From: Bacteroides stercorirosoris | GTDB lineage: Bacteria > Bacteroidota > Bacteroidia > Bacteroidales > Bacteroidaceae | Reading direction: 5' to 3' | DNA length: 64,000 nt | Assembly (NCBI RefSeq): GCF_900142015.1 | Contig: NZ_FQZN01000017.1 | Span: forward strand, 62,001-126,000 | Shown here: positions 23,339-44,864 of the stretch, piece by piece | Layout of the letters: the number at the start of each line of letters is the position of its first letter | Position numbering within the stretch: the stretch's first letter is position 1 | The notes under the pieces: model-generated | Told to the model about the DNA's origin: nothing | What the model saw: only the letters and a program-made list of their open reading frames with translations | Database searches by the model: none | Made by a program: the position numbers and the translations under genes

Positions 23339-23932
23339 TTATTTCAAGAAACCATTCTTATAGAAATCATAAGAAGATTCTATATTTTCCGGAGTATCAG
23401 CCTTTAAAAGCAACAGCAGTTCGCGAGTGAACTCCAAATGCCCCGTACCATTAGCGGTCACAATATTCTTATCACTGACAGCTTGTTTTTCCTGATATCC
23501 GGCTTCATTGGTATATCGTTCACCGGCAAACTGTTTCAGATATGGAAGCGTGTTACTGGTATGCTTCACATCGTTCAGAAAGCCATGTGCACCCATAAAT
23601 GCGGACGCATTGCAGATAGCTCCTACTATTTTGCCACGTCGCAAGGCATCTTGCACGATAGGCACCACCAATTCCGATTCGGGTGATTGCCACTGCATGC
23701 CGCCTATCAGAATCAATGCTGCATAATCGGCAGGCATAGTCTGAAAACTATAATCCGGCACTGTACGGAATCCGCCTATGGAACGGACTTCATCCAGTGT
23801 CGGAGCAACTGTCTTTGGTGTATATTTCACTTCGCTACCCGGTATCACCCCGGCATTTAAAGAAATAGCGAGGAACGCGCCTTCCCAATCGGCATAATCA
23901 TTCAATAGGAGAAATAAGACTTCCTGTTTCAT
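23339..23932 (-). CDS. DJ-1/PfpI family protein
   Basis: A 197-residue cytosolic protein with the class I glutamine-amidotransferase-like fold of the DJ-1/PfpI superfamily. The nucleophile elbow is VGAICNASAFMGAHGFL, with Cys at about residue 105, and the preceding glycine-rich strand is LILIGGMQW. Members act as glyoxalases, deglycases, chaperones or peptidases. The close sequence type with a TPKTVAPTLDEVRSIGGF stretch is a common uncharacterised one in gut bacteria. Function beyond the superfamily cannot be read. Confidence 0.85.
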   Translation of the reverse strand: MKQEVLFLLLNDYADWEGAFLAISLNAGVIPGSEVKYTPKTVAPTLDEVRSIGGFRTVPDYSFQTMPADYAALILIGGMQWQSPESELVVPIVQDALRRGKIVGAICNASAFMGAHGFLNDVKHTSNTLPYLKQFAGERYTNEAGYQEKQAVSDKNIVTANGTGHLEFTRELLLLLKADTPENIESSYDFYKNGFLK

Positions 23933-24017: not shown

Positions 24018-24956
24018 TTATTGTCTGTTGGCCCTCTTGATATCCATCAGTGAAATGTTTTCATTCCGGTATCGGGCATTCGGATTTCGTTCGCCTCTTG
24101 CCAATAAAGGATCTTCATCATTCTTTTTGAACTGAATGGCTTTCTGCGGACAGTTTTGAATGCAGGCGAAACAGAAATCGCAATCTCCCTGCATGGTAAT
24201 CCCATTTGAAGTAAATTCATAGTTTCCACGCGGACAGACCTCCGTGCAGGCTCCGCAACCGATGCAATTCTCCGTAACGACAAAATACCGTTCACTTTTC
24301 TTGAGAAAACCTACTTCAGGATCAAGTCCCGAAAGCGTCATGAATCCTGCATGCATCTGCCGCTCCTCTTCACTTACCGGTTCGTGCCACTCTCGCCTGC
24401 GGGAGATGTCCCCGGTGATTCGCTGCAAGTTCTCCGGAATATGCTTCTCTATTTTAATCTGTTCGTTCATGTCGAAGTTCGGCAACCAATTATCCACCAT
24501 GATGAGCGTGGCAATATAATCAAATGGGTTACCCGCCTCGCGCGATATACCATCTCATATCTCTATCGCGTCGCATTTTCTCGCTCCATAAGTGAGAACT
24601 GCGAACTTATATCCTGCTTTCAGCTTAGCTTTCCTGATGAAGTTCCGCACCATATTGGGCGGCATATGGCCATATATCGGATAGACAATACCTATTTCAT
24701 CCGCCTCGAACTCGTACTGGTTTTGTTTCACCATTTGCGGAATACTCAATAGCTGTCCTTCCTCCCCTGCCAATTGGCGGGCGACATACAAACAGTTTCC
24801 CGTAGCAGTGAAATACAAAACAATACGCTTCTTCTGTGTTTTTTCTGCACAAGAAGTCAAAACTGATAATCCTATTGACGAGGTGGCTACTCCTGCGACA
24901 ATCATACCGATTCTCGCCAAAGCTTCTCTACGGCTGATTCCTTTATCTGTTCCCAT
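24018..24956 (-). pseudogene. EFR1-type flavodoxin-ferredoxin protein interrupted by one in-frame TGA
   Basis: One frame of 312 codons is broken only by TGA at 24555-24557. Before it: a signal sequence with SRREALARIG (twin-arginine-like) and a lipobox-like LTSCAEK, then a flavodoxin domain (RIVLYFTATGNCLYVARQL, YPIYGHMPPNMV). After it, in the same frame: DGISREAGNPFDYIATLI, MVDNWLPNFDMNEQ and two [4Fe-4S] motifs, CIGCGACTEVCP and CDFCFACIQNCP. This is the domain order of the EFR1 family. No frameshift is needed to rejoin the halves; a change from TGC or TGG to TGA explains it. It is either a nonsense pseudogene, a sequencing error or read through. It stands at the 3' end of the redox locus. 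Confidence 0.8.
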
Positions 24957-25135: not shown

Positions 25136-25182
25136 TAAAAAACGCTGATATCATTGTCTTTATATGACAACAATATCAGCGT
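25136..25182 (-). terminator. Terminator of the MBL hydrolase gene
   Basis: Imperfect 17-bp stem (25142-25158 and 25166-25182) with A residues at 25136-25142, read as six T residues on the minus strand. It lies 33 bases beyond the stop codon and probably ends the operon, so that the EFR1 pseudogene has separate transcription. Confidence 0.75.
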
Positions 25183-25214: not shown

Positions 25215-26291
25215 CTATAAAGGTACGACCTCCCCAATCACGGGAACCAGCATATTCAGCGAATCTTGTTTCTGCATATTCTTTTCGTTCATCAGAGGTT
25301 CATCCCAAGGATGCCTTGCCAGAGCATATTTGGAATGATGTACCGTCAATATTCTTTTCGCTTTCAGTTCTCTGGCAGCCTTTCCCATATCCGAAGGCAT
25401 CAGATGGATGTACTTCCAGTCTTCATTATATTGGCCGTTCTCCAGAATGGCAAGGTCTATATCGGGAAAGCGTTTTCCGATTTCTTCAAAATGAGAATCA
25501 TATCCACCGTCTCCTGCCATATATAGCTTCTGAGACGGAGTTTCCAACAGGAAGGACGCCCACAAGGTCTGGTTGGCTTTCAGACCACGCCCGGAGAAAT
25601 GCCGTGTCGGGAGACAATAAGCGGTAAAGCCGTTATCCAGTGCGGCATTTTCCTGCCAATCCAATTCCACAAGCTGTTCTTTTCTGTATCCCCAATGTTC
25701 CAGATGTTCGCCGACACCCAATCCGCAAATCACCTTGCCCACCCGGTCTTTCAGACTTTTCACAGTGCGATAGTCCAAGTGGTCCCAATGATCGTGGCTG
25801 ATTACCAGATAATCAATGTCCGGCATATCCTCCGGCTTATAAATATCGGTTCCCTTGAATGGTTTATTGACAAAGGACACAGGGGAAGCCATGCAGAATA
25901 CAGGGTCAACCAGAATACGTTTTCCGTCTATCTGGATAAAGTAAGAGGAATGCCCGAACCAGATGAGTACATCTTTATCACGCTCCAATTTATGCAAGTC
26001 CGTTTTAATGGTCGGAACTGCATTCTCCGGTCTCAATCCTTCCGGCTTGCGGAACAGGAAGGAAAGCATCGCTCCAAAACGCCCCTTATCCGACGCCATC
26101 ACCGGTGTCTGGTGCAGATTGCTGAACTGACCGTCACGGTAATGGGGCGAACGTTTGATTCTCTCCAAGCGCTCACCTTGGGGCAACCTGCCGAAGCTCG
26201 GCTGATTGATAAAAGCGAATACGGAAATGCATATTACTGCTATGACCGCTATTAGTATTCCAAACCACATACGTACTTTTGTTTTTCTCAT
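25215..26291 (-). CDS. MBL-fold metal-dependent hydrolase (RomA/NAPE-PLD-like)
   Basis: A 358-residue protein with an N-terminal membrane anchor or signal (WFGILIAVIAVICISVFAF) and a metallo-beta-lactamase fold. Metal ligands are visible in VISHDHWDHLDYR (HxHxDH variant), CLPTRHFSGRG, YMAGDGGYD and LTVHHSKY. The GHSSYFIQIDGKRILVDPVF strand is shared with NAPE-hydrolysing phospholipase D and RomA-like proteins. It is likely periplasmic and tethered. Its substrate is unknown. It follows the aldo/keto reductase by 18 bases and belongs to the same operon. Confidence 0.8.
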   Translation of the reverse strand: MRKTKVRMWFGILIAVIAVICISVFAFINQPSFGRLPQGERLERIKRSPHYRDGQFSNLHQTPVMASDKGRFGAMLSFLFRKPEGLRPENAVPTIKTDLHKLERDKDVLIWFGHSSYFIQIDGKRILVDPVFCMASPVSFVNKPFKGTDIYKPEDMPDIDYLVISHDHWDHLDYRTVKSLKDRVGKVICGLGVGEHLEHWGYRKEQLVELDWQENAALDNGFTAYCLPTRHFSGRGLKANQTLWASFLLETPSQKLYMAGDGGYDSHFEEIGKRFPDIDLAILENGQYNEDWKYIHLMPSDMGKAARELKAKRILTVHHSKYALARHPWDEPLMNEKNMQKQDSLNMLVPVIGEVVPL

Positions 26292-26309
26292 TCTAAATTA
26301 GTTTACGAG

Positions 26310-27698
26310 CTACAACGTTTCCTGTTTCAACTGTTCCACAAACGCATCAATGCGTCTCAGTTCCTTAGGAATATTGATACTCTGCGGACAGTGGGGCGAG
26401 CATTGGTCGCAACCGATGCAATGGCTTGCCTGGCGCAGGCGTGGCACACTGCGGTCGTATCCTACAAGGAAAGCACGACGCGCCTGCCTGTAATTCTCAT
26501 CCTGCTGGCTCTTCGGCACATTGCCTTCATTCACACATTTATTATAATGGATAAGCACAGCAGGAATATCAATACCATACGGGCAAGGCATGCAATATTT
26601 GCAGTCATTGCAAGGCACCGTAGGATATTTCAGCATCAACTGCGCCGTTTCTTCCAGAAACTCCTTATCATCCTCGGTCAGAGGAATCAGCGGGGAGTAT
26701 GTACGGATATTATCTTGCAGATGCTCCATATACGTCATACCACTCAACACCGTCAACACCAGTTCCGGGGAACCGGCAAAGCGGAATGCCCACGACGCCA
26801 CACTATCTTCCGGGCGACGTTGTTTAAGACGCGTCATGATATGAGTGGGCACATTGGAGAGGCGTCCTCCCAACAGCGGTTCCATAATGACCGCCGGAAT
26901 ATTGCGCTTCACCAATTCATCATACAGATAATCCGCATTCACATTGCGTCCCGAAGCATGTTTCCAATCCACATAATTAAGCTGTATCTGCACAAAATCC
27001 CATTTCACTTCATCGTGCAGGGAGAGCGCATAATCATATGTATCTACCGAACCATGAAAAGAGAATCCCAGATTGCGGATACGCCCCGCCTCCCGCTCTT
27101 TCAACAGAAATTCCATCATTCCGTTATCAATATACCGTGCCTTGAAAGCCTCCGTTCCGCCACCACCGATGGAGTGGAGCAGATAATAATCGATATAATC
27201 CGTCTGCAAATCCTCGAACGACTTGCGATACATGGCAATGGAATTCTCACGGCTATAATTACTGAAATTAGAGAGTTTGGTAGCAATGAACAGTTTCTCA
27301 CGCGGATGACGTTTCAGCGCAATGCCTGTTGACTTCTCCGACCATCCCTGCACATAAACCGGGGATGTATCGAAATAATTCACCCCGTGTGCGATGGCAT
27401 AATCCACCAATTCGTTTACGGCATCCTGGTCAATCATATCCCCTTTCCCGTCCGGTGAAGGAACAGTAGGCCAGCGCATACAGCCATAGCCGAGAAGTGA
27501 AACACGATCTTTCTGAGCCACAGAGGTGCGGTAAGTCATTTTATCCGTAGGCACCGGCGTAGATGCAGTACCTCCGGGCGTCACCCCGTCTTTTTGCTTG
27601 CAGCTATAAAGAGTGGCGGCAGCCGTAGTAGTGGCAGCACTGATACCCACTATTTTCAGGAAATCCCTGCGGTTTATATTTTTATTATGTTCTTCCAT
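26310..27698 (-). CDS. Exported aldo/keto reductase with C-terminal ferredoxin domain
   Basis: A 462-residue protein. The N-terminus NRRDFLKIVGISAATTTAAATLYSC is a twin-arginine-type signal ending in a possible lipobox. An aldo/keto reductase barrel follows (VNYFDTSPVYVQGWSEK, FIATKLSNF, IDYYLLHSIGGGG hold Asp, Tyr, Lys and His of the catalytic tetrad), and then a ferredoxin-like end with CNDCKYCMPCP and CIGCDQCSPHCP. The substrate would be a carbonyl compound reduced with electrons from Fe-S clusters or NAD(P)H. The start at 27698 puts the RR motif near residue 11. It sits directly downstream of a membrane polyferredoxin that could supply electrons outside the cytosol; that link is inference. 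Confidence 0.85.
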   Translation of the reverse strand: MEEHNKNINRRDFLKIVGISAATTTAAATLYSCKQKDGVTPGGTASTPVPTDKMTYRTSVAQKDRVSLLGYGCMRWPTVPSPDGKGDMIDQDAVNELVDYAIAHGVNYFDTSPVYVQGWSEKSTGIALKRHPREKLFIATKLSNFSNYSRENSIAMYRKSFEDLQTDYIDYYLLHSIGGGGTEAFKARYIDNGMMEFLLKEREAGRIRNLGFSFHGSVDTYDYALSLHDEVKWDFVQIQLNYVDWKHASGRNVNADYLYDELVKRNIPAVIMEPLLGGRLSNVPTHIMTRLKQRRPEDSVASWAFRFAGSPELVLTVLSGMTYMEHLQDNIRTYSPLIPLTEDDKEFLEETAQLMLKYPTVPCNDCKYCMPCPYGIDIPAVLIHYNKCVNEGNVPKSQQDENYRQARRAFLVGYDRSVPRLRQASHCIGCDQCSPHCPQSINIPKELRRIDAFVEQLKQETL

Positions 27699-27729
27699 AT
27701 ATGTTTCTAACATTTATCACATTATCATC

Positions 27730-29235
27730 TTATATCACCCTATGTCTCTCATGCCCTTCCACATAAATAGCACTGAACGGACGTGCCGGACAAAGATTCT
27801 CACAGGCTCCGCAACCGATGCAACGCTCCACGTTGACGGCCGGGATTTTCGGGGACTTGTCATCATTCGCATCAGAAGGCACCATCGTAATGGCAGCAGC
27901 CGGACAATGACGGGCACAGTTTCCACAATTCACCCCGTCCGTCAGGGGCACGCAGTTCTTCTTAATCCACACGGCGTGGCCTATCTGAATAGACGATTTA
28001 TCGGCCAGACTGGTGAGATGAATAGCATCCGTGGGACACACCTCGGCACACTTGGCACATTCCGGACGGCAATAACCACGTTCATAAGACATCTCCGGCT
28101 GCATCAATGTCATCAGATTGCCGGAAGGACGCAATACCTGATTAGGACACACCGACACACAAAGCTGGCAAGCCGTACAATGCTCCGTAAAGTTGCGCGC
28201 TCCCAATGAACCTGCCGGGAAAATAGGCGTCGTGCGCTTGGGAATCTTTTTATCTTCGATAACCGCCAGTCCGCCATCCACCTTTTTCTCTTGCGCTTTC
28301 AGCAAGGTGCTTGTGGCAAATATGGCTCCGGCAGAGAAGAAGGCACGGCGTGCATTATCCACCTGTTCCGGTGACACGCTATTCACCTTTCCGGCAGCCA
28401 CCGGTTGCAGTGTTTCTTTACGCGGACGTTCATAGCGGATGGCTCCCTTCTTGCATTTTCCAATGCAATCCATGCAAGCCACACAACGGCTATAATCTAT
28501 TTTATGGGCTTTCGGGTCGATGCAGGCCGCTTTACAGTTGCGTGCACACAGTCCACAGCCATTGCATTTACTGGTATCAATCACCGGTTTCAGCAAAGAA
28601 AAACGTGACAGGAATCCCAGCACCGTGCCCACCGGACAAATCGTATTACAATATGTACGTCCGTTGCGCCAAGCCAGCACAGCCAGAATGACAAACGTCA
28701 GGGCAGCTATCGCAAAAGTCCCCACAGCCTTCATCCACACGTCCACGGAATAAAACATATAGCTGTCCGCACGTTCCGCCAGATAGGCAAGCAGGTTATT
28801 TCCCCACTGATATACCGGGGCAAAGAGATTGGAGGCAATCCGACCATACGAACTGTAAGGTGCAAGCAGCGCCACCAGAGAGCCGACGCCCCCTATCAAA
28901 GCCAATATAAACACGCCCAATACTCCATAGCGCAACCAATTGAGTGCAGGCGAATAAGAGTAGCGGTTCTTCTTCCGCTTTTTGCCCAGCCATGAAACCA
29001 CGTCCTGAAAGACACCCAGCGGACATATTACCGAACAATACACACGTCCCAAAAGCAACGTCAGCACAATCAGGGCTATCACAACCCCTACATTCAAGGC
29101 TAACAACGCAGGCAAGAATTGAATTTTAGCCATCCAGTCGAACCAACCATGCAGTGTCCCCGTGAAGTCGAGGAACAGCAGCGTAATCAGCACAAAGAAG
29201 AAAATGGCAACCGTTAGTCTGATTTTTCGTAACAT
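27730..29235 (-). CDS. Membrane polyferredoxin (NapH/CcoG-like)
   Basis: A 501-residue protein. The N-terminal half has membrane segments at about 5-25, 42-62, 100-125 and 168-190, with CSVICPLG (from residue 67) and CNTICPVG, the paired CxxxCP motifs of NapH-type proteins. Then come CNGCGLCARNC and CVACMDCIGKC. After a second hydrophobic stretch headed by RRAFFSAGAIFATS follow CTACQLCVSVC, CAKCAEVCP, CGNCARHCP and CIGCGACENLCP. About six clusters could pass electrons across the membrane. Neighbours are a TonB-dependent receptor, a small transporter-like protein and an exported reductase, so electron delivery to the periplasm is the natural reading, though unproven. Confidence 0.85.
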   Translation of the reverse strand: MLRKIRLTVAIFFFVLITLLFLDFTGTLHGWFDWMAKIQFLPALLALNVGVVIALIVLTLLLGRVYCSVICPLGVFQDVVSWLGKKRKKNRYSYSPALNWLRYGVLGVFILALIGGVGSLVALLAPYSSYGRIASNLFAPVYQWGNNLLAYLAERADSYMFYSVDVWMKAVGTFAIAALTFVILAVLAWRNGRTYCNTICPVGTVLGFLSRFSLLKPVIDTSKCNGCGLCARNCKAACIDPKAHKIDYSRCVACMDCIGKCKKGAIRYERPRKETLQPVAAGKVNSVSPEQVDNARRAFFSAGAIFATSTLLKAQEKKVDGGLAVIEDKKIPKRTTPIFPAGSLGARNFTEHCTACQLCVSVCPNQVLRPSGNLMTLMQPEMSYERGYCRPECAKCAEVCPTDAIHLTSLADKSSIQIGHAVWIKKNCVPLTDGVNCGNCARHCPAAAITMVPSDANDDKSPKIPAVNVERCIGCGACENLCPARPFSAIYVEGHERHRVI

Positions 29236-29254
29236 ACTTCTATTTTATGGAATA

Positions 29255-29767
29255 TCATTTATAAACCAAATACTTAATGAACAGATAGCCACCCAGCACC
29301 TGCAATACCATTCCCGGAATACCGATACGGAAATCCTGAAAGGCAAGAGTGAAGTTACCCAGCATGGCCCACTCGCCCAGTGTGCCCGCAAGCTGATAAG
29401 CCAGAACCACCAATGCCAGCATCGGGACAGAAACACGCTTGAAGCGGTTGGCAACAGTTCCGGCAGCCATAGCCAGCAAGGCCGATTTCAGTAGTATAGC
29501 CGGAAGCATGCCCGCAGCAGGCATACCGAAAAGCAGATGATTCAAAACCGGAGAAAAGACAGCAGTCAGTAACCCTACTTTCCAACCATATTTATAAGCT
29601 GCGATAAGCGTAAAGAAATAAATGGGAAGCAGCGTGAGGCCGCCTTGCGGGATAAGATGGCAAAGCTGAGGCAGAGCCAGGTTGCCCAGAATGAAAAGAG
29701 CAGCGGCAAAATACGTTTTCACATTGCCGTAATCCAGAGAATACAGTCTGATAGTTGTTGTTTTCAT
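29255..29767 (-). CDS. Small membrane protein of ECF S-component type (DUF6580-like)
   Basis: A 170-residue protein with five or six membrane segments (for example TYFAAALFILGNLALP, LLPIYFFTLIAAY, AILLKSALLAMAAG and MLALVVLAYQLAG). The size, the conserved YKYGWKVGLLTAVFSPVLNHLLFG stretch and the arrangement recall substrate-binding S components of energy-coupling-factor transporters, and the DUF6580 group in particular, which I name tentatively. It lies between the TonB-dependent receptor and the polyferredoxin in one operon, as expected for the inner-membrane half of an uptake route. No ECF ATPase gene is in the window. Confidence 0.6.
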   Translation of the reverse strand: MKTTTIRLYSLDYGNVKTYFAAALFILGNLALPQLCHLIPQGGLTLLPIYFFTLIAAYKYGWKVGLLTAVFSPVLNHLLFGMPAAGMLPAILLKSALLAMAAGTVANRFKRVSVPMLALVVLAYQLAGTLGEWAMLGNFTLAFQDFRIGIPGMVLQVLGGYLFIKYLVYK

Positions 29768-29781
29768 AATCTATATACTTA

Positions 29782-31692
29782 TTAAAAATTGATGTTTACT
29801 CCACCCATAAAAGTAGCTTTCGGCATCGGATAGCCGGCTATTATTTCGTAACGTTGTGCCAGCAGGTTCTCGCCACGCACATAGAACGACAGGTAATGGG
29901 TCGCTTTGAAGCTCCCCTGCATATCCCACAGCACAAAGTTCTCCTTGGTTTCCGCATCCAGGTCGGTATAAAGTCCTTTCACATATTGGATGCCCGTAGA
30001 TGCGCTCCAACGTCCTTTCCTGAAGTTCACACCTCCGTAAAGTTTATGTTCGGGAGATGCCAGCACAGGATTCTCCATATGAAGCCAGCTATAATTTGCC
30101 GTGACACCCCATGTTGAATTGAACCGGTATCCTATGTTGGCTTCCGCTCCCCAGTTCTCAATCTCACCGGAGTTCTGGTTCAGCATACCGCTTCCGGCCG
30201 GGTTGGGAAGACGCAGAATCAGGTTTTCACCATTGATATAGAACACATTTACGCCGTATGACAAACGGTTTTCCATAAGGCGCTGCGAGAAGGAAAGTTC
30301 ATAATTCCACAGTTTCTCGGGCTTCAAATCAGGATTTTGCGGAGGGAACATATACATTTCGCGAATGGTGGGATTGCGAAATCCCTTACTTGCCATTGCC
30401 TTGATTTCCGCATCTTTCGGGAGGTGGAAGGCCAGACCGACTTGTGGAATAAACTCCGTCCCTGTCTGCGAATGATGGTCTACGCGTGCACCGGCATTCA
30501 GTGTGAGCCAGGTGACGATGTCCTGCCGGAAGTCTACATATCCGGCTACTTCATTCAGGGATTTATCCGCCGAAGTTTCACGATGTCCGTCAGAGAATTT
30601 GTTCCATGCTTCACCGCCGAAATGAAAATAATCGGCTCCTACAGTCACCCGGTTCCCTTTGAAAAGTTGCAAGCTCTGATACCATGATACACCGAGCATC
30701 TGGTCGTTGGAGTTGAAGCGGTAGTCAAGCGGTTTTCCGCCGGGCTGGTAGCCGTCGTTTATCCAGTGGTCTCCCCAGTTATAGAAGAAACTCAATGCTC
30801 CCGAGGTCTTTTCGTAATGATTCTCCAGAGCAAAAGAGGTCATACCGCGAGTGATGCGCTGGTCGTTGTCGATATAAGGGCGACTTACCGACCCCGGATT
30901 GGTGGCATTGAAACGGGTGATATTCACATCTCCCCACAGCTTCCAGTTGTCCGTGAAGTCATAACCCAACTTGGCATAACCGCCGTATTGTTCAAAGCCC
31001 ATATCGGCCCGATGCCCGTCCGTACGATTATAAGAAGCCGTCACCGTACTGCTGAAACGTCCTTTCCGGATGCGGTTGGTAGCTTCGGTCTGCAAGGTTC
31101 CATAAGAACCGGCACCGATGTTGATGCTTGTATTCACACCGTCTTCCTGCATCTTGCGGGTGACGATGTTGATGACGCCACCCATGGCATTGGAACCGTA
31201 AAGCACCGATGCCGGACCACGAAGCACTTCCACTCGCTCCGCCATCATCGTTTGGTAAGCATCGGCGATGGGATGTCCCATCAAACCCATATATTGAGGA
31301 TGTCCGTCAATCAAAACCAACAGTCCGGTAGTGGGTAACCCCGCCTGTGCAGGACCTCCGATTCCACGCAGCGACATCTGTCCTGATGCACCTGTGGCCA
31401 CACCATACCCCATCACACCGCGTGAAGTGGAGAAGAAACCGGGCACCTGGGAGTTCAGCACCGGAAGTACGGAAGCCTGTTGGCTCGCTTCAAGTTGCGG
31501 ACGTCCCACCACTGATACGGTCATGGGCAGATGGCGTACATCCGTTTCGCTGCGTGTGCCCGTCACCACCACTTCATTAATAGCGTAGCTTCTCGCTACC
31601 TGTGTGCTGTCCTTGCCGGTTTGTGCTTGCAGGCTTGCCGCACTTATCAAGCAGCCTGTACATAATGCAAGTATCGTTCTCTCTTTTTTCAT
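29782..31692 (-). CDS. TonB-dependent receptor
   Basis: A 636-residue outer-membrane receptor with signal peptide (MKKERTILALCTGCLISAA), TonB-box region YAINEVVVTGTRSETD, plug domain (VLIDGHPQYMGLMGHPIAD, VEVLRGPASVLYGSNAMGGVINIVT) and a beta-barrel ending AGYPMPKATFMGGVNINF. It is of the compact BtuB/FepA size class rather than the 1,000-residue SusC type and has no SusD partner, which points to a small cofactor or metal chelate rather than a glycan. The start at 31692 is supported by a TATATTTG -7 box on the minus strand at 31734-31741. The LytTR regulator gene lies directly upstream. Confidence 0.92.
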   Translation of the reverse strand: MKKERTILALCTGCLISAASLQAQTGKDSTQVARSYAINEVVVTGTRSETDVRHLPMTVSVVGRPQLEASQQASVLPVLNSQVPGFFSTSRGVMGYGVATGASGQMSLRGIGGPAQAGLPTTGLLVLIDGHPQYMGLMGHPIADAYQTMMAERVEVLRGPASVLYGSNAMGGVINIVTRKMQEDGVNTSINIGAGSYGTLQTEATNRIRKGRFSSTVTASYNRTDGHRADMGFEQYGGYAKLGYDFTDNWKLWGDVNITRFNATNPGSVSRPYIDNDQRITRGMTSFALENHYEKTSGALSFFYNWGDHWINDGYQPGGKPLDYRFNSNDQMLGVSWYQSLQLFKGNRVTVGADYFHFGGEAWNKFSDGHRETSADKSLNEVAGYVDFRQDIVTWLTLNAGARVDHHSQTGTEFIPQVGLAFHLPKDAEIKAMASKGFRNPTIREMYMFPPQNPDLKPEKLWNYELSFSQRLMENRLSYGVNVFYINGENLILRLPNPAGSGMLNQNSGEIENWGAEANIGYRFNSTWGVTANYSWLHMENPVLASPEHKLYGGVNFRKGRWSASTGIQYVKGLYTDLDAETKENFVLWDMQGSFKATHYLSFYVRGENLLAQRYEIIAGYPMPKATFMGGVNINF

Positions 31693-31815
31693 CTTTAAAA
31701 ACACTCTTTTTATTCTATAATAGTTTTCGATTGCAAATATAGGGACTGTTGTCAACAGAAACCGTAGACAAATTACAGTAGTATATACCTAAATTACTGA
31801 TTAACGTCCTGTAAC

Positions 31816-32574
31816 CTAACCGTTATTACTCACCAGCCACGACTTGAACTCAGACGCTTTATTCTTACTGATATAGACACGTTCGGGAACCTCCACATCG
31901 AGCGTCACCAACAGGCGGCTATCGAACCAGATGGTTATATCCGTCACGCTGTTCCTGGCTATGATGAATTGCTTATTCGCCCGGATAAAGTCGGCGGGAT
32001 TCAGAGAGGACATTATCTGTTCCAACGTCTTGGAGTACGGATACAGGGTCCCGTCTTTCAGATACACACACGTATTCTTATCCGCCGTATAAAAACACGA
32101 AACATCCCTCAGACTGACAGGCAGCAATTTATCTTTATAGGGAATCAATAGCTTGTCTTTATATCTGGGCGCCGGTGCCAACAGGTTCAACTGAGACAAG
32201 TATTGCAGAATATCCTGACGGGTCAGCTTGCTATACTTATCCAGTGCATGCTTCACATCCTCCACCTTCACCGGTTTCAGCAGGTAGTCCACGCTGTTCA
32301 CCTTAAAGGCTTCTATCGCATAACGGTCGTATGCCGTCGTAAAAACAATGGGGGTTTCCAGTTCCATCTTGTCGAAGATGGTAAATGCCGAGCCGTCCGA
32401 CAAATGTATATCCATGAATATCAAATCCGGAGCCGGATTGGATTGCAGCCAATGGATAGTCTGGGTCACACTTTCCGTATTACCGGAAATCTGAATATCA
32501 TAGGAGACTTCCTTAAGAATATCTACCAGATTCTCATAAGCGGCAGTCTCGTCTTCTACAATAAGCACTCTCAT
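31816..32574 (-). CDS. LytTR-family response regulator
   Basis: A 252-residue regulator: receiver domain with VEDET pocket and phospho-acceptor D55 in LIFMDIHLSDG, then a LytTR DNA-binding domain (KDKLLPVSLRDVSCFYTAD to RANKQFIIARNSVTDI). It forms a pair with the kinase gene 35 bases upstream. The TonB-dependent receptor operon downstream is the obvious target. Its closest relative in the window is the regulator at 42343, with which it shares the same spacing of motifs. Confidence 0.92.
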   Translation of the reverse strand: MRVLIVEDETAAYENLVDILKEVSYDIQISGNTESVTQTIHWLQSNPAPDLIFMDIHLSDGSAFTIFDKMELETPIVFTTAYDRYAIEAFKVNSVDYLLKPVKVEDVKHALDKYSKLTRQDILQYLSQLNLLAPAPRYKDKLLIPYKDKLLPVSLRDVSCFYTADKNTCVYLKDGTLYPYSKTLEQIMSSLNPADFIRANKQFIIARNSVTDITIWFDSRLLVTLDVEVPERVYISKNKASEFKSWLVSNNG

Positions 32575-32609
32575 ATCGCTACTCTTTTGTTTTGATATTG
32601 ATTCTATTT

Positions 32610-33626
32610 TTATTTTAAAGGGAGATACACCCGGAATGTTTCTTCATCGCACTCCACCCGGATTTGCTTGTTCATCAGCAAAGCGAAACGGCTTTCCAGA
32701 TTCTTCAATCCGGTTCCGTTGGTATCGGGCGGAGAGAGTTTGGGGTAAACAGGATTGGACACCACCAACTCGTTCCGCTCGTTCAGCCGGATGGAGATTT
32801 CCATCTTATGTTCACTGTCTATCATATTATGAACGGTCACGTTCTCCACTAGTGGGAGCAATGAAAGCACCGGCAATGTCAGTTCATCCTGCACAGCCTC
32901 GTCTACCCGGATGGAGAACACCAGCTTATTGGCAAAGCGCACCTCCATCACGTAGCGGAAAGACTGGATGAATTCCAGTTCCTCCCTCAGCGTGACGAGC
33001 CCCTTCTTGTCACTCTGAAGAATGTAGCGGAAGATGTCGGACAACTCATGCACGTACATCAGTGTTTTCTCGTCATCCTTCTTGCGGATGAGCGATTGCA
33101 CTCCGTTCAGTGAGTTAAAAAAGAAATGCGGGTTTATCTGGTTGGCCAATGCATCGCAACGGCTTTGCAAGTTCTCTATGCGCAGGCGCTCAATCTCGTG
33201 TTCCTTCTCCCGTTGTTTGGAGTAGAGCATGGAGATGTGACCGATAAGCGTGCAGAGGGAACACAGGATGAAGAATTGGGAAAGCAAGGTGCTGCCCAGA
33301 AAGTCGGTGCGGATGCCATACGAGGCAATCCAGTAGGAAACGGATGCAAACCCCGCGTAGGCAAGCAACGAATAGCCGAAGTTGCGGGCAAAGCGTTCCT
33401 TAAACTGTGCATCCGGTAGCCGGCGCAGATTATAGCGTATCAACAGGCTAATCAGTGCCCAGAAGAAAAAGAAACGGTAGGCGAAATACCAATAAAACCC
33501 TGCGCAAACTCCCCAGAATTGTATATCCCAGGGGAGGCAGGCTATGTTGGGATATATAATGAAAACCGCACTAATCAGGCTGACCAGCGGCAGTTTACGG
33601 CTTATGTAGGTATCGAATGAGGACAT
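32610..33626 (-). CDS. LytS-type sensor histidine kinase
   Basis: A 338-residue kinase of the His_kinase (PF06580) family. About four membrane segments fill the first 130 residues (LVSLISAVFIIYPNIACL, FFFWALISLLI, LLAYAGFASVSYW), followed by a short coiled coil and the phospho-acceptor motif ANQINPHFFFNSLNGVQSLI, then an ATPase domain (LPLVENVTVHNMI and GTGLKNLESRF). With no large extracytoplasmic domain, the signal is likely sensed in or at the membrane. The start at 33626 drops an unlikely 22-residue extension. Pairs with the LytTR regulator downstream. Confidence 0.9.
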   Translation of the reverse strand: MSSFDTYISRKLPLVSLISAVFIIYPNIACLPWDIQFWGVCAGFYWYFAYRFFFFWALISLLIRYNLRRLPDAQFKERFARNFGYSLLAYAGFASVSYWIASYGIRTDFLGSTLLSQFFILCSLCTLIGHISMLYSKQREKEHEIERLRIENLQSRCDALANQINPHFFFNSLNGVQSLIRKKDDEKTLMYVHELSDIFRYILQSDKKGLVTLREELEFIQSFRYVMEVRFANKLVFSIRVDEAVQDELTLPVLSLLPLVENVTVHNMIDSEHKMEISIRLNERNELVVSNPVYPKLSPPDTNGTGLKNLESRFALLMNKQIRVECDEETFRVYLPLK

Positions 33627-33768
33627 ACGGTTTTCTTCTTTTCTGCAAAGAAAAACAAAATTATCGAGACGCGGTAGCGGCAAAAGAGGCAAAACGAAAA
33701 AACAGGGGGTAAAAGCGAATTTAACTTAAAAGGAAAGAGAGTGCATTAAAGATGAAAGAGGCAGAACT

Positions 33769-33861
33769 CACCACAGATTACACGGATTGACACAGATTAA
33801 AATTAAAAAATTGATTATCAAAATAGATAATCTGTGGAAATCTGTGAAATCTGTGGTTAAA
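33769..33861. repeat. ATCTGTG-type imperfect inverted repeat
   Basis: Arms of about 30 bases (33769-33799 and 33827-33861) built from repeated CACAGATT and AATCTGTG words, paired with a few mismatches around an A/T-rich loop. It lies between the kinase gene and the HigBA-like module and could terminate the latter. The type is a short non-coding palindromic repeat. Confidence 0.6.
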
Positions 33862-37364: not shown

Positions 37365-38255
37365 TTATGCCCGATACTCATTCGGGCTTACTCCTACTAC
37401 CTTCTTAAACAAACGGCTCAGATGGTGCGGATACTTGAAGCCCAGTTCATAGGCAACTTCGCTGACGGTTTTATTCTCATCATAGAGCCGTTCCTTTGCT
37501 TTCTCTATCACAAAGAGCTGAATGGACTCCTGAGCAGACTTTCCGGTTTCTTTCTTAATCAAATCACCAAAATAATTGGCAGAAAGATGCAGTTTGTCCG
37601 CGGCATATTGCACAGACGGCAAACCGACAGTTTGCGGCTGGTCTGATTCAAAGTAGTCACTGAGCAGATTCTCAAAGCGAACCAGGATATCTTTATTCAG
37701 GCTTTCACGCGTAATGAATTGGCGGTCATAGAAACGCTGGCAATGGTTCAGCAAAAGTTCAATGGTAGAAGCGATAATGCTTTTACTATGCTTATCTATG
37801 GCCCGTTCCAGTTCTTCCTGTATCTCCAGATAACAGTTAAGGATAATCTGACGCTCACGCTCGGACATGTGCAAAGCTTCATTTGCTTCATAAGAGAAGA
37901 AACTGTAGTCCTTCATCTTGCGTCCCAATGATGTGCCCCGCAATAAATCAGGATGGAATAGTAACGCCCATCCTTGCGGGTTCAATGTTTCTTTGTCGTC
38001 ATCGACACCCGCCACCTGTCCCGGAGCGACAAAAACCAGCGTACCTTCCTGATAATCGTAGGTGCTGCGTCCATAAGACAACTCACCACATTTAAGCTGT
38101 TTCAGGAAGATACAATAAAAGCCGAAATTCTTGCGCCCGTGCTTTAATGATTTCAGCGTTGAAAAGTCGACCACACTGACGAGCGGATGTAATGTCTCCA
38201 CTCCCACCGCCATATTATACTCATGAATTGTATTCAACTTTACGATTGCTCCCAT
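37365..38255 (-). CDS. AraC-family transcriptional regulator
   Basis: A 296-residue regulator with an N-terminal AraC-ligand-type domain (GELSYGRSTYDYQEGTLVFVAPGQVAGV) and two C-terminal helix-turn-helix motifs (QYAADKLHLSANYFGDLIKK and VSEVAYELGFKYPHHLSRLFKK), ending GVSPNEYR. It is divergent from the flavodoxin and aldo/keto reductase pair, a context seen often in Bacteroides for control of redox genes. The ligand cannot be read. Confidence 0.88.
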   Translation of the reverse strand: MGAIVKLNTIHEYNMAVGVETLHPLVSVVDFSTLKSLKHGRKNFGFYCIFLKQLKCGELSYGRSTYDYQEGTLVFVAPGQVAGVDDDKETLNPQGWALLFHPDLLRGTSLGRKMKDYSFFSYEANEALHMSERERQIILNCYLEIQEELERAIDKHSKSIIASTIELLLNHCQRFYDRQFITRESLNKDILVRFENLLSDYFESDQPQTVGLPSVQYAADKLHLSANYFGDLIKKETGKSAQESIQLFVIEKAKERLYDENKTVSEVAYELGFKYPHHLSRLFKKVVGVSPNEYRA

Positions 38256-38436
38256 ATTCTTCTTTGATTTTATCCAATGACAAAAATAAAGGTTTTCTCT
38301 TAGCTTCCAAACATCCGCATCATTAAATCTGTAATATTGGTATGAGAAACTGTAATCTGTGCATGCACCTCATTTTCAAGCATTCAAGAAAGATTCTGAA
38401 ACCGTAATTATGGTTTGCAAAGCAGTAATCTGTCTA

Positions 38437-38467
38437 TTTACAAACACTGTCCCACGGCCTACCTTTG
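38437..38467 (+). promoter_or_regulatory. Promoter of the flavodoxin gene
   Basis: TTTA (38437-38440), 19 bases, TACCTTTG (38460-38467). It lies 68 bases upstream of the ATG and 180 bases from the divergent AraC gene, leaving room for its binding sites. Confidence 0.65.
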
Positions 38468-38534
38468 CAACATCAAAAACATAAAGAATAATCCCCTATC
38501 TCTTGATAGAGTCAAACTTTAAAATTAGCATAGT

Positions 38535-40008
<1,474 letters not shown>

Positions 40009-40025
40009 TAATAAAAAAAACTCAT

Positions 40026-40074
40026 AAAACTAAAGAGGGCTATTTCAAAAATCAAAGCAGTCCTCTTTAGTTTT
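40026..40074 (+). terminator. Terminator between AKR and HepT genes
   Basis: A 13-bp perfect outer stem (40026-40038 and 40062-40074) ending in TTTT, with A-rich sequence on the other side, so it can act for both convergent operons. Confidence 0.7.
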
Positions 40075-40093
40075 AACTATTCTCAAATACTCT

Positions 40094-40444
40094 TCATTCA
40101 GTCTTACTCCTTGCAATAATCATCTCTATTTGAGGAATCAATGTTGGAATTATATTCTTAGCAACATCCCAAACAATCAGATAGTTTACTCCCATATAGT
40201 CATGAATCAATTTATCCCTCATCCCTGCCATTTCACGCCACGAAATTCCCTGCCACTGATATTTTATATCTGCAGGAATCTTTTTGGTAGCTTCGCCTAT
40301 AATCTCAAGGCTACGTGTCACAGCACGCTTCAATGTTTCATCAGAGAGAAATTGATGCATAACAGCATTATCCGGCACAACCGAACGTATATAATTACAT
40401 TCTTGCAATATATGTTGCAAATATGGAATGTAAGACTTACACAT
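40094..40444 (-). CDS. hepT: HepT-like HEPN-domain toxin
   Basis: A 116-residue HEPN (DUF86) protein. The RNase motif RxxxxHxY is R76-DKLI-H81-D-Y83 in GMRDKLIHDYMGVNY. In characterised HEPN/MNT pairs the toxin is an RNase that is silenced when the partner nucleotidyltransferase adds AMP to the tyrosine of this motif; Tyr83 is the corresponding residue. The gene overlaps the end of the mnt gene by eight bases. Confidence 0.85.
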   Translation of the reverse strand: MCKSYIPYLQHILQECNYIRSVVPDNAVMHQFLSDETLKRAVTRSLEIIGEATKKIPADIKYQWQGISWREMAGMRDKLIHDYMGVNYLIVWDVAKNIIPTLIPQIEMIIARSKTE

Positions 40445-40730
40445 ATTCTACCTCATTAAGAATGTGATTTCCAATGTATGGACTAAGCCCTTTAAAAGTC
40501 ACAATATCCAATTTACACTGTTTAAATACACTTTCCAATTTATCACAAACAGACATAAAATTCTGATAAGTTTCTTTTTCCGGTTGAAAATCAATTAAGA
40601 TATCAATATCGCTATGTTTCGTATTCTCTCCCCTTACCGTAGAACCAAACAGCCCCAACTTAATTACCCCATACTTGGATAATTCAGATTTTAATTGCGA
40701 TAACTTACGAAGCACCGTTATTTTATTCAT
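40437..40730 (-). CDS. mntA: MntA-like nucleotidyltransferase antitoxin
   Basis: A 97-residue minimal nucleotidyltransferase: LGLFGSTVRGENTKHSDIDI with G29-S30 and the metal-binding D41 and D43, then LDIVTFKGLSPYI. The family is the antitoxin half of HEPN/MNT modules and inactivates the HEPN protein by AMP transfer. The start at 40730 is preferred over 40754 because a TATCTTTG -7 box lies on the minus strand at 40752-40759. Confidence 0.85.
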   Translation of the reverse strand: MNKITVLRKLSQLKSELSKYGVIKLGLFGSTVRGENTKHSDIDILIDFQPEKETYQNFMSVCDKLESVFKQCKLDIVTFKGLSPYIGNHILNEVEYV

Positions 40731-40856
40731 AATCATCTTCTTTAGCTGATGCAAAGATAAATGATTAATCGGAGAAACGGAAACAACAAGCTATTTTTTA
40801 AAGTGAGTGACAATCCTTTAAACGACGATATACCTGAAAGTGATATTTTCCTCCCC

Positions 40857-40962
40857 ATTAAAAGATAATTTGCATACAATCTATACTTTTATAGAGTGTT
40901 TTAGAAATTGAACAGGTATACAAAACGACTTTTATGCCGATTACTCTATCTGAATACATGAT
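40857..40962 (+). pseudogene. Dead copy of the hxlR promoter and first codons
   Basis: This stretch aligns with 44403-44530. It keeps the -33 region (TTAAAAGATAATTTGCATAC), TAGAGTGTTTTAGAAAT and, in frame, T-I-Q-N, Y-A-D and I at the positions of TDIQNGSYADCPI in HxlR. Two deletions of about 11 and 17 bases remove the promoter spacing and the start codon, and TGA codons interrupt the frame. It lies in the 357-base gap between the mntA gene and the next kinase gene. Confidence 0.75.
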
Positions 40963-41056
40963 ATCTCAATACTGAAAAATGCAGTATTGTAGAGACGATT
41001 CACAGCCTATTTTGTCCGTTTCACCGTCTTATTTGAAATAAAACGGATGGATTGAT

Positions 41057-41064
41057 TATTTTTG
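41057..41064 (+). promoter_or_regulatory. -7 box of the second LytS/LytTR operon
   Basis: TATTTTTG at 41057-41064. Transcription would start near 41070, which makes the ATG at 41088 the likely start of the kinase gene. Confidence 0.6.
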
Positions 41065-41087
41065 TCCCGCAAATAACGCAGCGTCTC

Positions 41088-42362
41088 ATGAATATTACAT
41101 TCCCCCAAAAACGGAGTAATAAAACTGACAGTGATTTTATTATATGGCATTTGACAAAGAATGAATTATTGATTGGACTCACCATATCTGTGATTCTGAC
41201 TCTTTTTGCCAATTTTGCATTGTTAATGCGACGCTATGATTTAATAATGGACTCAAAAGGAGCCGGCATCACTTGGGAAATAGAGAAATATGATTTCTGG
41301 TTTTCCATAGTATGGTTCTGGCTCTTTTCTTTCATTTTATTTATCCTCTACAGGTGGATGTATAAATGGGGAAACATAATATTCCGGCGCAAGGAAGTGA
41401 AAACAATAGGGTTTGCAATGGGAATTATTATATTCGTGGCTTTCGGGCTATATCAGGCACATCCTGCATTGAAGAAGATAATCATCATGGAAAAGAAACA
41501 TGATGCCATTACCTCCTATAATTTCACGGAACACGCAGTTTTTATAACGGAAGTCTCAAAAAAAACATTAGACGTGGCTCCAGATTCCATAACCTCCCCC
41601 AATAAGGCACAGATGGGAGTAAGTGCCGTTTTTTCAAGCACCAATTCATACCCTCTGCTGGTAGAGCATATTTTTGTCCTACTGACTATCATGCTAAGCA
41701 TGCTTTTGCTCCATCTGCTTGATAAAAAGCAAGAAATGACACTGGAATATGAAAAAATAAAAGTCGAAAAACTACAAAACTCATACAATGCACTGATGGG
41801 ACAAATTAACCCGCATTTCTTCTTCAACTCATTAAACGGACTCAATTCGTTAATCCGCATGAACGAACAAAACAAGACACTTGAATACCTGGAAGAATTA
41901 TCCAATGTTTTCCGCTATATCTTGCAAAGCAATCACAAAACATTAGTTCCCCTTGATGAAGAACTACAGTTTGCAAGAGCCTATACTTATCTGCTCAGTG
42001 TACGTTATGAAAACAAGCTGTTCTTCTCAATCCGGATTGCAGAAAGCTGCCGACAGAAGAGGCTGCCTATTCTTAGTCTGCTCCCGCTTATTGAGAATGC
42101 CGTGAAACACAACATCATCAGCATGCAACACCCCCTGCAGGTTGAGGTTTATACAACATCCGAAGATTTATTAGCCGTATCCAATCCTATCCGCCCCAAA
42201 ATGGAAGAGTGCGTCTGCAACAAGATAGGACTAAAGAATCTTCAGGGGCGCTATCAAATGCTGACCGGAAAAAGCATACGGATAAACAATTCCAACGGAT
42301 ATTTTGTAGTATCTCTTCCATTGTCTGATATATTGGAAATGTATGAAAGCAATAATCATTGA
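41088..42362 (+). CDS. LytS-type sensor histidine kinase
   Basis: A 424-residue kinase of the PF06580 family. Membrane segments at about 30-50, 75-95 and 110-130 and again at 195-215 frame an extracytoplasmic loop of about 70 residues (KKIIIMEKKHDAITSYNF onwards). The phospho-acceptor motif is MGQINPHFFFNSLNGLNSLI, and the ATPase domain has LPLIENAVKHNII and IGLKNLQGRYQML. The response regulator gene overlaps its end by 20 bases. It is the second such pair within 10 kb, with a larger sensor than the one at 32610. Confidence 0.9.
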   Translation: MNITFPQKRSNKTDSDFIIWHLTKNELLIGLTISVILTLFANFALLMRRYDLIMDSKGAGITWEIEKYDFWFSIVWFWLFSFILFILYRWMYKWGNIIFRRKEVKTIGFAMGIIIFVAFGLYQAHPALKKIIIMEKKHDAITSYNFTEHAVFITEVSKKTLDVAPDSITSPNKAQMGVSAVFSSTNSYPLLVEHIFVLLTIMLSMLLLHLLDKKQEMTLEYEKIKVEKLQNSYNALMGQINPHFFFNSLNGLNSLIRMNEQNKTLEYLEELSNVFRYILQSNHKTLVPLDEELQFARAYTYLLSVRYENKLFFSIRIAESCRQKRLPILSLLPLIENAVKHNIISMQHPLQVEVYTTSEDLLAVSNPIRPKMEECVCNKIGLKNLQGRYQMLTGKSIRINNSNGYFVVSLPLSDILEMYESNNH

Positions 42363-43104
42363 AGATGAAACAGCAGCAGTAAACAGCCTGAAAGCTATTT
42401 TACAGCAAAATTCAGTGGCCGACATTGAAGTGGTTGCCGAATTAGAAAGCATCGAAGACAGTATTGAATGGTTTCAAAGTTCATCACCACCGGATATCAT
42501 TTTCATGGATATTCATCTGGCAGACGGTTTGGCTTTTACTATTTTCGAACAGGTAGAAGTTGCAGCTCCCGTAGTGTTTACTACCGCTTATGATGAGTAT
42601 GCTTTACAGGCTTTTCAAGTGAGTAGCATTGACTATCTCCTGAAACCTATCACGCTGAATTCATTGGAGCATGCATTGAACAAATTCCTTCTTTTCAATC
42701 CAACGGAACGAAGAGAACATATCCTACGAACCAATGCCATGATTGAGAACCGGAAAGAAGTGAAAAAACTGTTGGTTATGCTTGCTGATAAGTTTTATCC
42801 GCTCCCGGTAGATGATATCTGCTATTTCTATACTGCCCGGGAAAAAGTTACGGCCCATACTTTTGACGGCAAAAAACATCCGGTAGACCGCACGCTCGAC
42901 ACACTTTATGAGCAATTGAACCAACAGAATTTCTTTCGCGCCAACCGTCAATTCATTATTTCACGGAAGTCTGTCAAAGACGTAGACCTCTGGTCAGGTA
43001 ACCGGCTTTCCGTCAACTTGTTTATACCCGTTCCCGAACGCATTGTTATAAGTAAGGTGAAAACTCCGATATTCAAAAAATGGATTATGCAGGAAGAGGA
43101 TTAA
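42343..43104 (+). CDS. LytTR-family response regulator
   Basis: A 253-residue regulator: receiver with IEDET pocket and phospho-acceptor Asp in DIIFMDIHLADG, switch lysine in DYLLKPITLNS, and a LytTR DNA-binding domain (DKFYPLPVDDICYFYTAREK to FRANRQFIISRKSVKDV). It overlaps the kinase gene, so the two are co-translated. Downstream genes at 43232 and 43739 may be targets or accessory members. Confidence 0.92.
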   Translation: MKAIIIEDETAAVNSLKAILQQNSVADIEVVAELESIEDSIEWFQSSSPPDIIFMDIHLADGLAFTIFEQVEVAAPVVFTTAYDEYALQAFQVSSIDYLLKPITLNSLEHALNKFLLFNPTERREHILRTNAMIENRKEVKKLLVMLADKFYPLPVDDICYFYTAREKVTAHTFDGKKHPVDRTLDTLYEQLNQQNFFRANRQFIISRKSVKDVDLWSGNRLSVNLFIPVPERIVISKVKTPIFKKWIMQEED

Positions 43105-43231
43105 AAACATTACCCCGCTCTGTTGTTTGCTTCACCTGCAAAGAATCCCCGTTTGCCGGTACTTAACTTTTGTTAGCTGATATTTTCCTTTAATTTGCAG
43201 CAAATGATGAGAATAAATTAAACGAAACATT

Positions 43232-43669
43232 ATGCTGAAATGTATAATTCTCGACGGGGATATTGCCACTCTCAATGAACTGATGGAATATCTGGAAAAG
43301 GTTAACCGCTCCCTAACGGAAGTAAATTCACTGTTTACCGCCAATAAGTTTAGCAATCAGTCTATTTTCCTCCGTGACGGAAATCGAATTGTGCGCATCA
43401 ATCAGGAAGATATTCTATATTTGGAAGGATATGGAGATTACGTCAAAGTACATCGCACAGAAGGAAAGCCTATACTTTCGCAATTAACTTTAAAACACTT
43501 CGAAGAATGCCTTGAAGGAGTTTTTTGTCGCGTGCACCGCTCTTATATCGTTTCACTATCCCATATCAATTACATCGAGCATAAAAGAATCCGCATTGAA
43601 GGAGCCACCATTCCGATCAGTGATTCTTATATGCCTATATTAATGAGCAAACTGCACATGCAAATATAA
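43232..43669 (+). CDS. LytTR DNA-binding protein with a collapsed receiver domain
   Basis: A 145-residue protein. Residues 1-40 (MLKCIILDGDIATLNELMEY) resemble the first strand and helix of a receiver, but the acidic pocket reads DGD and the next 70 or so residues, including the phospho-acceptor aspartate and the switch lysine, are absent. A complete LytTR domain follows (FLRDGNRIVRINQEDILYLEGYGDYVKVH, then FCRVHRSYIVSLSHINYI). It can probably bind DNA but not respond to phosphorylation, and so may compete with or assist the regulator at 42343. Internal deletion in an ancestral response regulator is the likely origin. Confidence 0.8.
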   Translation: MLKCIILDGDIATLNELMEYLEKVNRSLTEVNSLFTANKFSNQSIFLRDGNRIVRINQEDILYLEGYGDYVKVHRTEGKPILSQLTLKHFEECLEGVFCRVHRSYIVSLSHINYIEHKRIRIEGATIPISDSYMPILMSKLHMQI

Positions 43670-43738
43670 GTTGACTCTACCGGCTATAGCACAAATTATA
43701 AATATTTTTAATGTATCACATTCTAAAAAAGAATTATC

Positions 43739-44359: not shown

Positions 44360-44415
44360 GATAAGAACACCTAAACTGATTTAAGAAGCTAACTGTCCAA
44401 CAATTTAAAAGATTA

Positions 44416-44447
44416 TTTGCATACAATCGGCATATTAGTTACTTTTG
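44416..44447 (+). promoter_or_regulatory. hxlR promoter
   Basis: TTTG (44416-44419), 20 bases, TACTTTTG (44440-44447). This is the intact counterpart of the degraded sequence at 40857-40962. Confidence 0.7.
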
Positions 44448-44475
44448 TAGAGTGTTTTAGAAATCAAAGCAATAT

Positions 44476-44859: not shown

Positions 44860-44864
44860 AAGTC

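Follow-up and report, generated by a model that had tools for sequence, protein, structure and literature searches.

A Bacteroides stercorirosoris locus that may link uptake of a cofactor-like compound to periplasmic reduction

The window analysed here is a stretch of 64,000 nucleotides from Bacteroides stercorirosoris (assembly GCF_900142015.1, contig NZ_FQZN01000017.1, positions 62,001 to 126,000). Profile searches of its open reading frames placed seven genes on the minus strand between positions 25215 and 33626. They encode a LytS-type sensor histidine kinase, a LytTR response regulator, a TonB-dependent receptor, an S-component of the energy-coupling factor (ECF) type, a membrane polyferredoxin, an aldo/keto reductase and a metallo-hydrolase resembling NAPE-PLD (Table 1). 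This gene set and its order had been claimed in an original prediction from the sequence, and all seven genes were confirmed in that order. The five genes from receptor to hydrolase are regarded as one operon (25215-31692) because they are separated by only 14, 19, 16 and 18 nt and are followed by an intrinsic terminator at 25182-25142. The region holds 10 terminator-like sites compared to 8.6 in shuffled sequences, and the stem behind the hydrolase gene is the longest by far. A gap of 123 nt separates the LytTR gene from the receptor gene.

Table 1. Features of the locus, listed in the direction of transcription (positions in the window).
Feature	Position	Strand	Basis and remarks
Putative LytTR direct repeat, TTCGCTTTT ... 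TTTTTCGTTTT, 21 bp apart	33691..33719	-	64 nt ahead of the LytS ATG
LytS-type sensor histidine kinase	32610..33626	-	PF06580 (5.5e-24); ATG at 33626
LytTR response regulator	31816..32574	-	PF00072 and PF04397
Compact TonB-dependent receptor, 636 aa	29782..31692	-	PF07715 and PF00593; likely ATG at 31692
Solitary ECF-type S-component, 170 aa	29255..29767	-	PF12822 (9e-6, below cut-off); predicted fold
Polytopic polyferredoxin, NapH fused to NapG, 501 aa	27730..29235	-	NCBIfam NapH, NapG and NapF in matching halves
Tat lipoprotein aldo/keto reductase with C-terminal two-cluster ferredoxin domain, 467 aa	26310..27713	-	PF00248 and Fer4
Membrane-anchored NAPE-PLD-like metallo-hydrolase, 358 aa	25215..26291	-	PF12706; N-terminal hydrophobic segment (by eye)
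Intrinsic terminator after the hydrolase gene	25142..25182	-	17-bp stem and T run; -26.6 kcal/mol, z -5.98

The polyferredoxin has four strong transmembrane segments and two CxxxCP motifs. Two cluster motifs precede and four follow an internal fifth hydrophobic segment headed by a twin arginine (RR), so that the six clusters of the original prediction could be counted. The cysteine motifs are complete in 106 of 107 homologues. Two types of polyferredoxin were distinguished, namely type A with at least 52% identity, assigned from the match list, and type B, which belongs to a second version of the system described below. The internal RR is present in 100/109 type A and 16/19 type B proteins and is replaced by KR in four and three of them, respectively; four type A proteins have neither and one was not parsed. 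By these sequence features, the window protein is assigned to the polytopic Sec/Tat class of NapH-NapG fusions. According to PMC5449189, such a fusion was shown experimentally to use both the Sec and the twin-arginine translocation (Tat) pathway. The electron transfer proposed earlier fits this NapGH-like class, for which there is experimental support; reduction of the imported cargo itself is a hypothesis.

The reductase starts with the twin-arginine motif RRDFL followed by the lipobox LYSC and carries two 4Fe-4S motifs. Pattern searches found both RR and a lipobox in 86 of 109 homologues, RR only in 18 and no RR in five. The catalytic tetrad of aldo/keto reductases is D-Y-K-H. Its residues D115, Y120, K146 and H180 as well as all eight cluster cysteines are invariant in the 106 aligned sequences (106/106). 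Given the signal and lipobox, the invariant cysteines and the NapH-NapG class of the polyferredoxin, the enzyme is most naturally predicted to be exported, to sit on the periplasmic side of the inner membrane and to receive electrons from menaquinol. The export claimed by the original prediction thus agrees with the predicted location, with RR in 104/109 homologues.

For the receptor, the best NCBIfam match was TIGR01779 with 136.9 bits, far below the cut-off of 599.7, and vitamin B12 as cargo of a BtuB-type receptor was rejected on this ground. The S-component scored 26.2 bits on PF12822 and thus remained under the Pfam cut-off of 30.7. An AlphaFold model built from 42 sequences (pLDDT 87) matched TmRibU with a Z-score of 14.7 over 148 residues at 2.9 Å. 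The Z-scores for ECF S-components ranged from 14.7 down to 10.6, and the next different fold (Lnt) reached 8.4. With Foldseek alone, S-components also ranked first, the best E-value being 6.4e-3 (none below 0.001). The prediction therefore supports an S-component fold, as the wording 'S-component-like' had implied. No NCBIfam family matched the protein, and among the 42 sequences only two weak single-member matches were obtained. Riboflavin was considered as cargo, RibU being nearest in fold, but was rejected: the Z-scores of the S-components are nearly tied, and most of the 34 genomes with this S-component are apparently not riboflavin auxotrophs because RibH is present in 32 of them. The protein appears to be solitary since EcfT (PF02361) was matched neither in the window's genome nor in 31/34 carrier genomes; a match was found in the other three.

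The conservation of the set was studied in 295 Bacteroidales genomes. The S-component was present in 34, DUF1893 (a small protein family treated below) in 29, the polyferredoxin family at E≤1e-40 in 135 and its type A in 49 of them. The S-component and DUF1893 occurred together in 23 genomes (3.3 expected), the S-component and type A polyferredoxin in 23 (5.6 expected), and DUF1893 and type A polyferredoxin in 26 (4.8 expected); the Fisher p-values ignore shared ancestry. A polyferredoxin was found in 29/34 genomes with the S-component compared to 135/295 overall.

Gene neighbourhoods were evaluated in 91 survey loci, chosen for the S-component, DUF1893 or the polyferredoxin, and in 80 named loci, which are the best of 590 confirmed stretches and are biased because they were selected by DUF1893. 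Genes were assigned by per-family profiles, and the reductase was counted in the fetched loci. The 50 type A loci comprise 49 of the 50 near-full-length matches with at least 52% identity as well as L062; one match from genome G286 and two fragments from G001 were left out. A reductase gene was located no further than 9 kb from the polyferredoxin gene in 48 of these 50 loci. The remaining two are L132, where the contig ends just past the reductase start, and L128, where none adjoins. Within the same distance, DUF1893 was found in 17, the S-component in 14, the receptor in 13, TatC in 10, a flavodoxin in 10, DUF362 in six, LytS/LytTR in five and an AraC-type regulator in four loci. The named loci contained the reductase in 67, type A polyferredoxin in 64, the S-component in 50, the receptor in 25 and TatC in 20 cases. 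Receptor, S-component, polyferredoxin and reductase were complete in 18 of the 80, including Bacteroides fragilis and Butyricimonas synergistica. Because several of the named loci share their contig with a survey locus (e.g. L157 and L042), the two counts are not additive. Elsewhere, the genes commonly follow the order (LytS-LytTR)-polyferredoxin-reductase-DUF1893-receptor-S-component-TatC, and many loci lack one or more of them; the window has a different order.

DUF1893, a frequent partner in other genomes, was not found in the window's genome and could therefore not be spotted in the first reading. L105, L106 and L109 encode it as a fusion in which the Tat-reductase comes first. In the survey loci L042, L099 and L110 and in the named loci L156, L157, L158, L202 and L204, it precedes the receptor in the same reading frame, and in the survey loci a signal-like stretch lies between them (by eye); L157 is on the contig of L042, and L156 and L158 are both from B. 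fragilis. Such a joining is unusual for an outer-membrane protein. A model of DUF1893 (pLDDT 95) matched TM1506 at a Z-score of 21. It also resembled AICAR (5-aminoimidazole-4-carboxamide ribonucleotide) transformylase, deaminases and an FdhD-like protein at 7.5-9.8, which may reflect only a common arrangement. The entry 9e9a is a solution structure of a Borrelia DUF1893 protein whose title gives no function. DUF1893 was not mentioned in the open-access literature searched, and among the papers listed for TM1506, 1VK9 and 9E9A none was useful.

A second version of the system was recognised around type B polyferredoxin. Its 19 loci contain a Tat-DUF362 protein in 18, the S-component in eight, a purine-type phosphoribosyltransferase in seven and the receptor in three cases. 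Among 37 S-component loci, at least 13 carry DUF1893 and 10 the phosphoribosyltransferase, but none has both (fused or overlapped copies were not counted); two loci had no known partner, and the receptor was present in 16. One S-component family is therefore shared by two kinds of exported oxidoreductase and by two different small partners. The window's genome also carries a paralogous operon of this second kind on contig C43 (L032), with an S-component, a DUF362-ferredoxin protein, a phosphoribosyltransferase, a Tat-DUF362 protein and type B polyferredoxin; no receptor was found within the stretch read.

The associations give good support for a functional connection among these genes, and the five operon genes likely act in a single pathway here. 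As a tentative interpretation, which is preferred to the others discussed below without reaching even confidence, they form a reductive uptake module in which import of a scarce cofactor-like compound is coupled to a quinol-driven periplasmic reductase. The TonB-dependent receptor would move the compound over the outer membrane. The NapH part of the polyferredoxin may oxidise menaquinol and, by analogy with the NapGH class and judging from its architecture, pass the electrons via cytosolic and then periplasmic NapG-type clusters. From there, they would flow to the clusters of the lipid-anchored reductase exported by Tat, and the compound would be reduced in the periplasm and thereby released or made transportable. 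Crossing of the inner membrane would then depend on the solitary S-component, with no ECF ATPase involved. Further processing of the compound is probably a task of DUF1893 in other species or, in the second version, of the phosphoribosyltransferase; the window operon has neither. LytS/LytTR would sense the need, with the candidate direct repeat before LytS pointing to likely self-regulation. Cargo candidates are a naphthoquinone precursor, e.g. 1,4-dihydroxy-2-naphthoate (DHNA), and a nickel-pincer or pyridine-type nucleotide precursor, but both the naphthoquinone and the nickel-pincer compounds are weak candidates.

Several observations weigh against this interpretation. Aldo/keto reductases normally use NAD(P)H, which the periplasm does not contain, and Pfam and NCBIfam scans detected no flavin domain in the reductase that would convert single electrons into a hydride. 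In the second version, the unrelated Tat-DUF362 protein takes the place of the reductase. The compartment of DUF1893 is ambiguous, as it would be exported behind the Tat-reductase but cytosolic ahead of the signal peptide of the receptor. Furthermore, an S-component is missing from the surrounding 9 kb in 34 of the 48 polyferredoxin/reductase pairs, 26/49 type A genomes lack any S-component, and 5/34 S-component genomes (G058, G121, G164, G211 and G257) have no polyferredoxin at E≤1e-40. Core genes that are not conserved together, or a cytosolic reductase, had been named beforehand as grounds to refute the proposal. Neither was observed: the core genes are associated across genomes, as seen for reductase and polyferredoxin (48/50 loci) and for the S-component and type A polyferredoxin, and the reductase is predicted to be exported. 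All four of receptor, S-component, polyferredoxin and reductase occur together in only 7 of the 91 survey loci. The tatC gene, proposed earlier as a check, was found in the window's genome; its presence proves little because TatC occurs in 246/295 genomes, and its distribution was discarded as a discriminating marker for the same reason. A redox pair that often stands without local transport genes weakens both the uptake of a compound by reduction and the supply of a cofactor, and leaves room for a role in stress or repair.

The cargo as substrate of the reductase is only one of two readings; alternatively, it could be a cofactor of the exported enzyme. An imported cofactor or nucleobase-like precursor would then be converted by DUF1893 or the phosphoribosyltransferase and loaded into the reductase or the DUF362 protein before Tat export, with the reductase acting on something else. 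Tat exports folded, cofactor-loaded proteins, which suits this alternative, as does the use of the same S-component family by two unrelated exported oxidoreductases (reductase in 48/50 type A and Tat-DUF362 in 18/19 type B loci). The lack of any S-component locus with both DUF1893 and the phosphoribosyltransferase, the DUF1893-reductase fusion and the resemblance of the DUF1893 model to AICAR transformylase, deaminases and an FdhD-like protein point in the same direction, although fold matches under a Z-score of about 8-10 may be due to arrangement alone. DUF362 and LarA, a lactate racemase that uses the nickel pincer nucleotide, are members of one Pfam clan (PMC11770544). In L178 (1980-8953), larE, larC, larB, a permease, a receptor, a lipoprotein, DUF1893 and the S-component form one run with the repeat in front (permease and lipoprotein by eye), and its receptor is 42.5% identical to that of the window. 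However, this is the single lar operon among the scanned loci. The only other lar genes, in L147 (8596-14079), form a larC-larE-larB cluster divergent from type B polyferredoxin and Tat-DUF362 without an S-component, so that the cases are too few for a claim. Genes resembling selD and tRNA selenouridine synthase were seen near the L147 cluster by eye. Considering also the 34 pairs without a nearby S-component, the supply of a cofactor is rated as rather unlikely, yet it is the most serious competitor of reductive uptake. The same 34/48 pairs speak for a further alternative, in which the chain would detoxify periplasmic electrophiles or quinones, comparable to MsrPQ, with the transport genes as incidental neighbours. 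A flavodoxin near 10/50 loci (with a signal peptide by eye in those viewed) and an AraC-type regulator near 4/50 agree with this, and the window locus itself is flanked by a DJ-1-like gene (23339-23932) and by an AraC-type regulator, a signal-peptide flavodoxin and a second aldo/keto reductase (37365-40008). Detoxification is nevertheless considered improbable in view of the tight operons, the fusions joining reductase, DUF1893 and receptor, and the co-occurrence with transport genes at genome level.

A more specific alternative is the salvage of naphthoquinones, i.e. vitamin K precursors such as DHNA. The system would import extracellular precursors in Bacteroidota, and the menaquinol-driven chain with its Tat reductase would keep the compound reduced during uptake for use by MenA. 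The window's genome contains MenA (201 bits), but no MenD, MenB or futalosine enzyme (PF02621) was found in it, and it is probably a menaquinone auxotroph unless a men cluster lies in an assembly gap. MenB was looked for in this genome only, and MenA without MenD was counted among the S-component genomes. Eleven of the latter lack MenD; none of these (0/11) has PF02621, and MenA is above the cut-off in 8/11. DHNA serves Porphyromonas pasteri as a growth factor (PMC9704088) and stimulates P. gingivalis (PMC12502741). No transporter for such compounds was known in 2017 according to PMC5738691, and none is named for Bacteroidota in the parts of PMC9704088, PMC12502741 and PMC10746273 that were accessible. 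On the other hand, MenD is present in 23/34 S-component genomes (one partial match) compared to 79/261 others, which is opposite to what salvage driven by gene loss predicts. A tie between the S-component system and loss of DHNA synthesis was rejected because of this positive association; salvage can coexist with synthesis. The 8-11 of 34 genomes seen here are no enrichment, because PMC5738691 gives a close value, with nearly 25% of 254 gut genomes having a missing or incomplete menaquinone pathway yet a respiratory reductase. No menaquinone gene was seen in the core operons, and DHNA may diffuse. Hence, naphthoquinone salvage seems quite unlikely, and uptake of a cofactor-like compound coupled to its reduction is kept as the preferred interpretation.

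Concerning regulation, the direct repeat was found once in the window and in none of 100 shuffled sequences. Its matches before LytS genes are not independent since the motif was derived from LytS upstream regions. When the fetched loci were scanned under relaxed conditions, eight matches were obtained, six of them before LytS, one before the genes of L178 and one elsewhere; four sets of control spacings gave 3, 0, 0 and 1 matches. Six of ten LytS loci thus have the repeat, while L062, L121 and the duplicate contigs L066 and L210 failed the scan, and L156, L158 and L161 are close relatives. The repeat in L178, 65 nt before larE, is the sole case independent of the derivation of the motif. The spacing fits LytTR-type regulators. 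Judging from the motif, LytS/LytTR probably regulates its own gene through this putative repeat, which was not seen ahead of the receptor gene of the window. For the window and seven loci, Rfam at gathering thresholds yielded only tRNAs and two small RNAs, and no riboswitch. The available parts of the literature on HaeSR, the haemin regulator of P. gingivalis, and on the iron stimulon gave no link to the locus. An inverted repeat of the ACCACAGATTTCACAGATT type at 33765-33860 upstream of LytS is possibly a dispersed element, and a second, more distant LytS/LytTR-like pair (248 and 270 bits) is located at 40008-45000 on the plus strand.

The tethered hydrolase with a metallo-beta-lactamase (MBL) fold, as originally described, agrees with the PF12706 domain and the N-terminal hydrophobic segment. 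Its best match of solved structure was NAPE-PLD (4qn9, E 2.4e-34). A gene of this kind lies within 9 kb of type A polyferredoxin in 4/50 loci, and the gap to the core gene is 18 nt in the window and in L155 and 28 nt in L181. As judged by its occurrence, it is accessory and adjoins the core genes in few loci. Downstream of the hydrolase gene (24018-24956, minus strand), two consecutive open reading frames correspond to residues 1-88 and residues 110-235 of a single EFR1 flavodoxin-ferredoxin family. The first has a Tat-like signal, and the EFR1-type gene is interrupted. The AraC-type regulator and the flavodoxin flanking the window locus also recur beside related loci elsewhere.

Among the open-access papers listed by the literature searches, none described this gene set, in line with the earlier statement that no characterised pathway with it was known. 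The parts are of known kinds; no earlier description was seen of their assembly, of the reductase that accompanies the polyferredoxin, of the DUF1893 fusions or of the repeat. If the preferred interpretation is true, the locus joins TonB-dependent uptake, an S-component without ATPase and the supply of respiratory electrons to an exported iron-sulfur aldo/keto reductase; to our knowledge, these are not known together. Several genera of the Bacteroidales carry the set, B. fragilis being among the species, and it provides a functional context for DUF1893 and DUF362. A quinone precursor as cargo would explain growth-factor uptake by vitamin-K-requiring Bacteroidota, whereas a nickel-pincer or pyridine compound would suggest scavenging of such a cofactor.

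In comparison with known systems, the receptor resembles BtuB-type receptors in its size and in its best, though weak, family score, but differs from them in that its 137 bits remain far from the cut-off of 600. The S-component shares size and predicted fold with RibU, ThiT, PanT, FolT and BioY. Complete ECF transporters have an EcfT/CbiQ partner. With no EcfT match in 31/34 genomes, that of the window included, the S-component must work alone or with other partners. As in the polytopic Sec/Tat class described in PMC5449189, a NapH-like membrane part with CxxxCP motifs continues in the polyferredoxin into a NapG-like periplasmic part with four clusters, and in both the twin arginine stands directly ahead of the fifth hydrophobic segment. 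Seven clusters are reported there for the MLMS-1 protein in contrast to the six motifs counted here. The neighbour of the window polyferredoxin is an aldo/keto reductase and not NapAB (NapA was not searched in the genome). The hydrolase shares PF12706 with NAPE-PLD, but is a membrane-anchored bacterial protein. Finally, the periplasmic repair system MsrPQ, which PMC5449189 mentions too, also combines a membrane electron donor with a Tat-exported reductase. Its components are heme and molybdenum proteins and the comparison includes no transport genes, which distinguishes it from the window locus.

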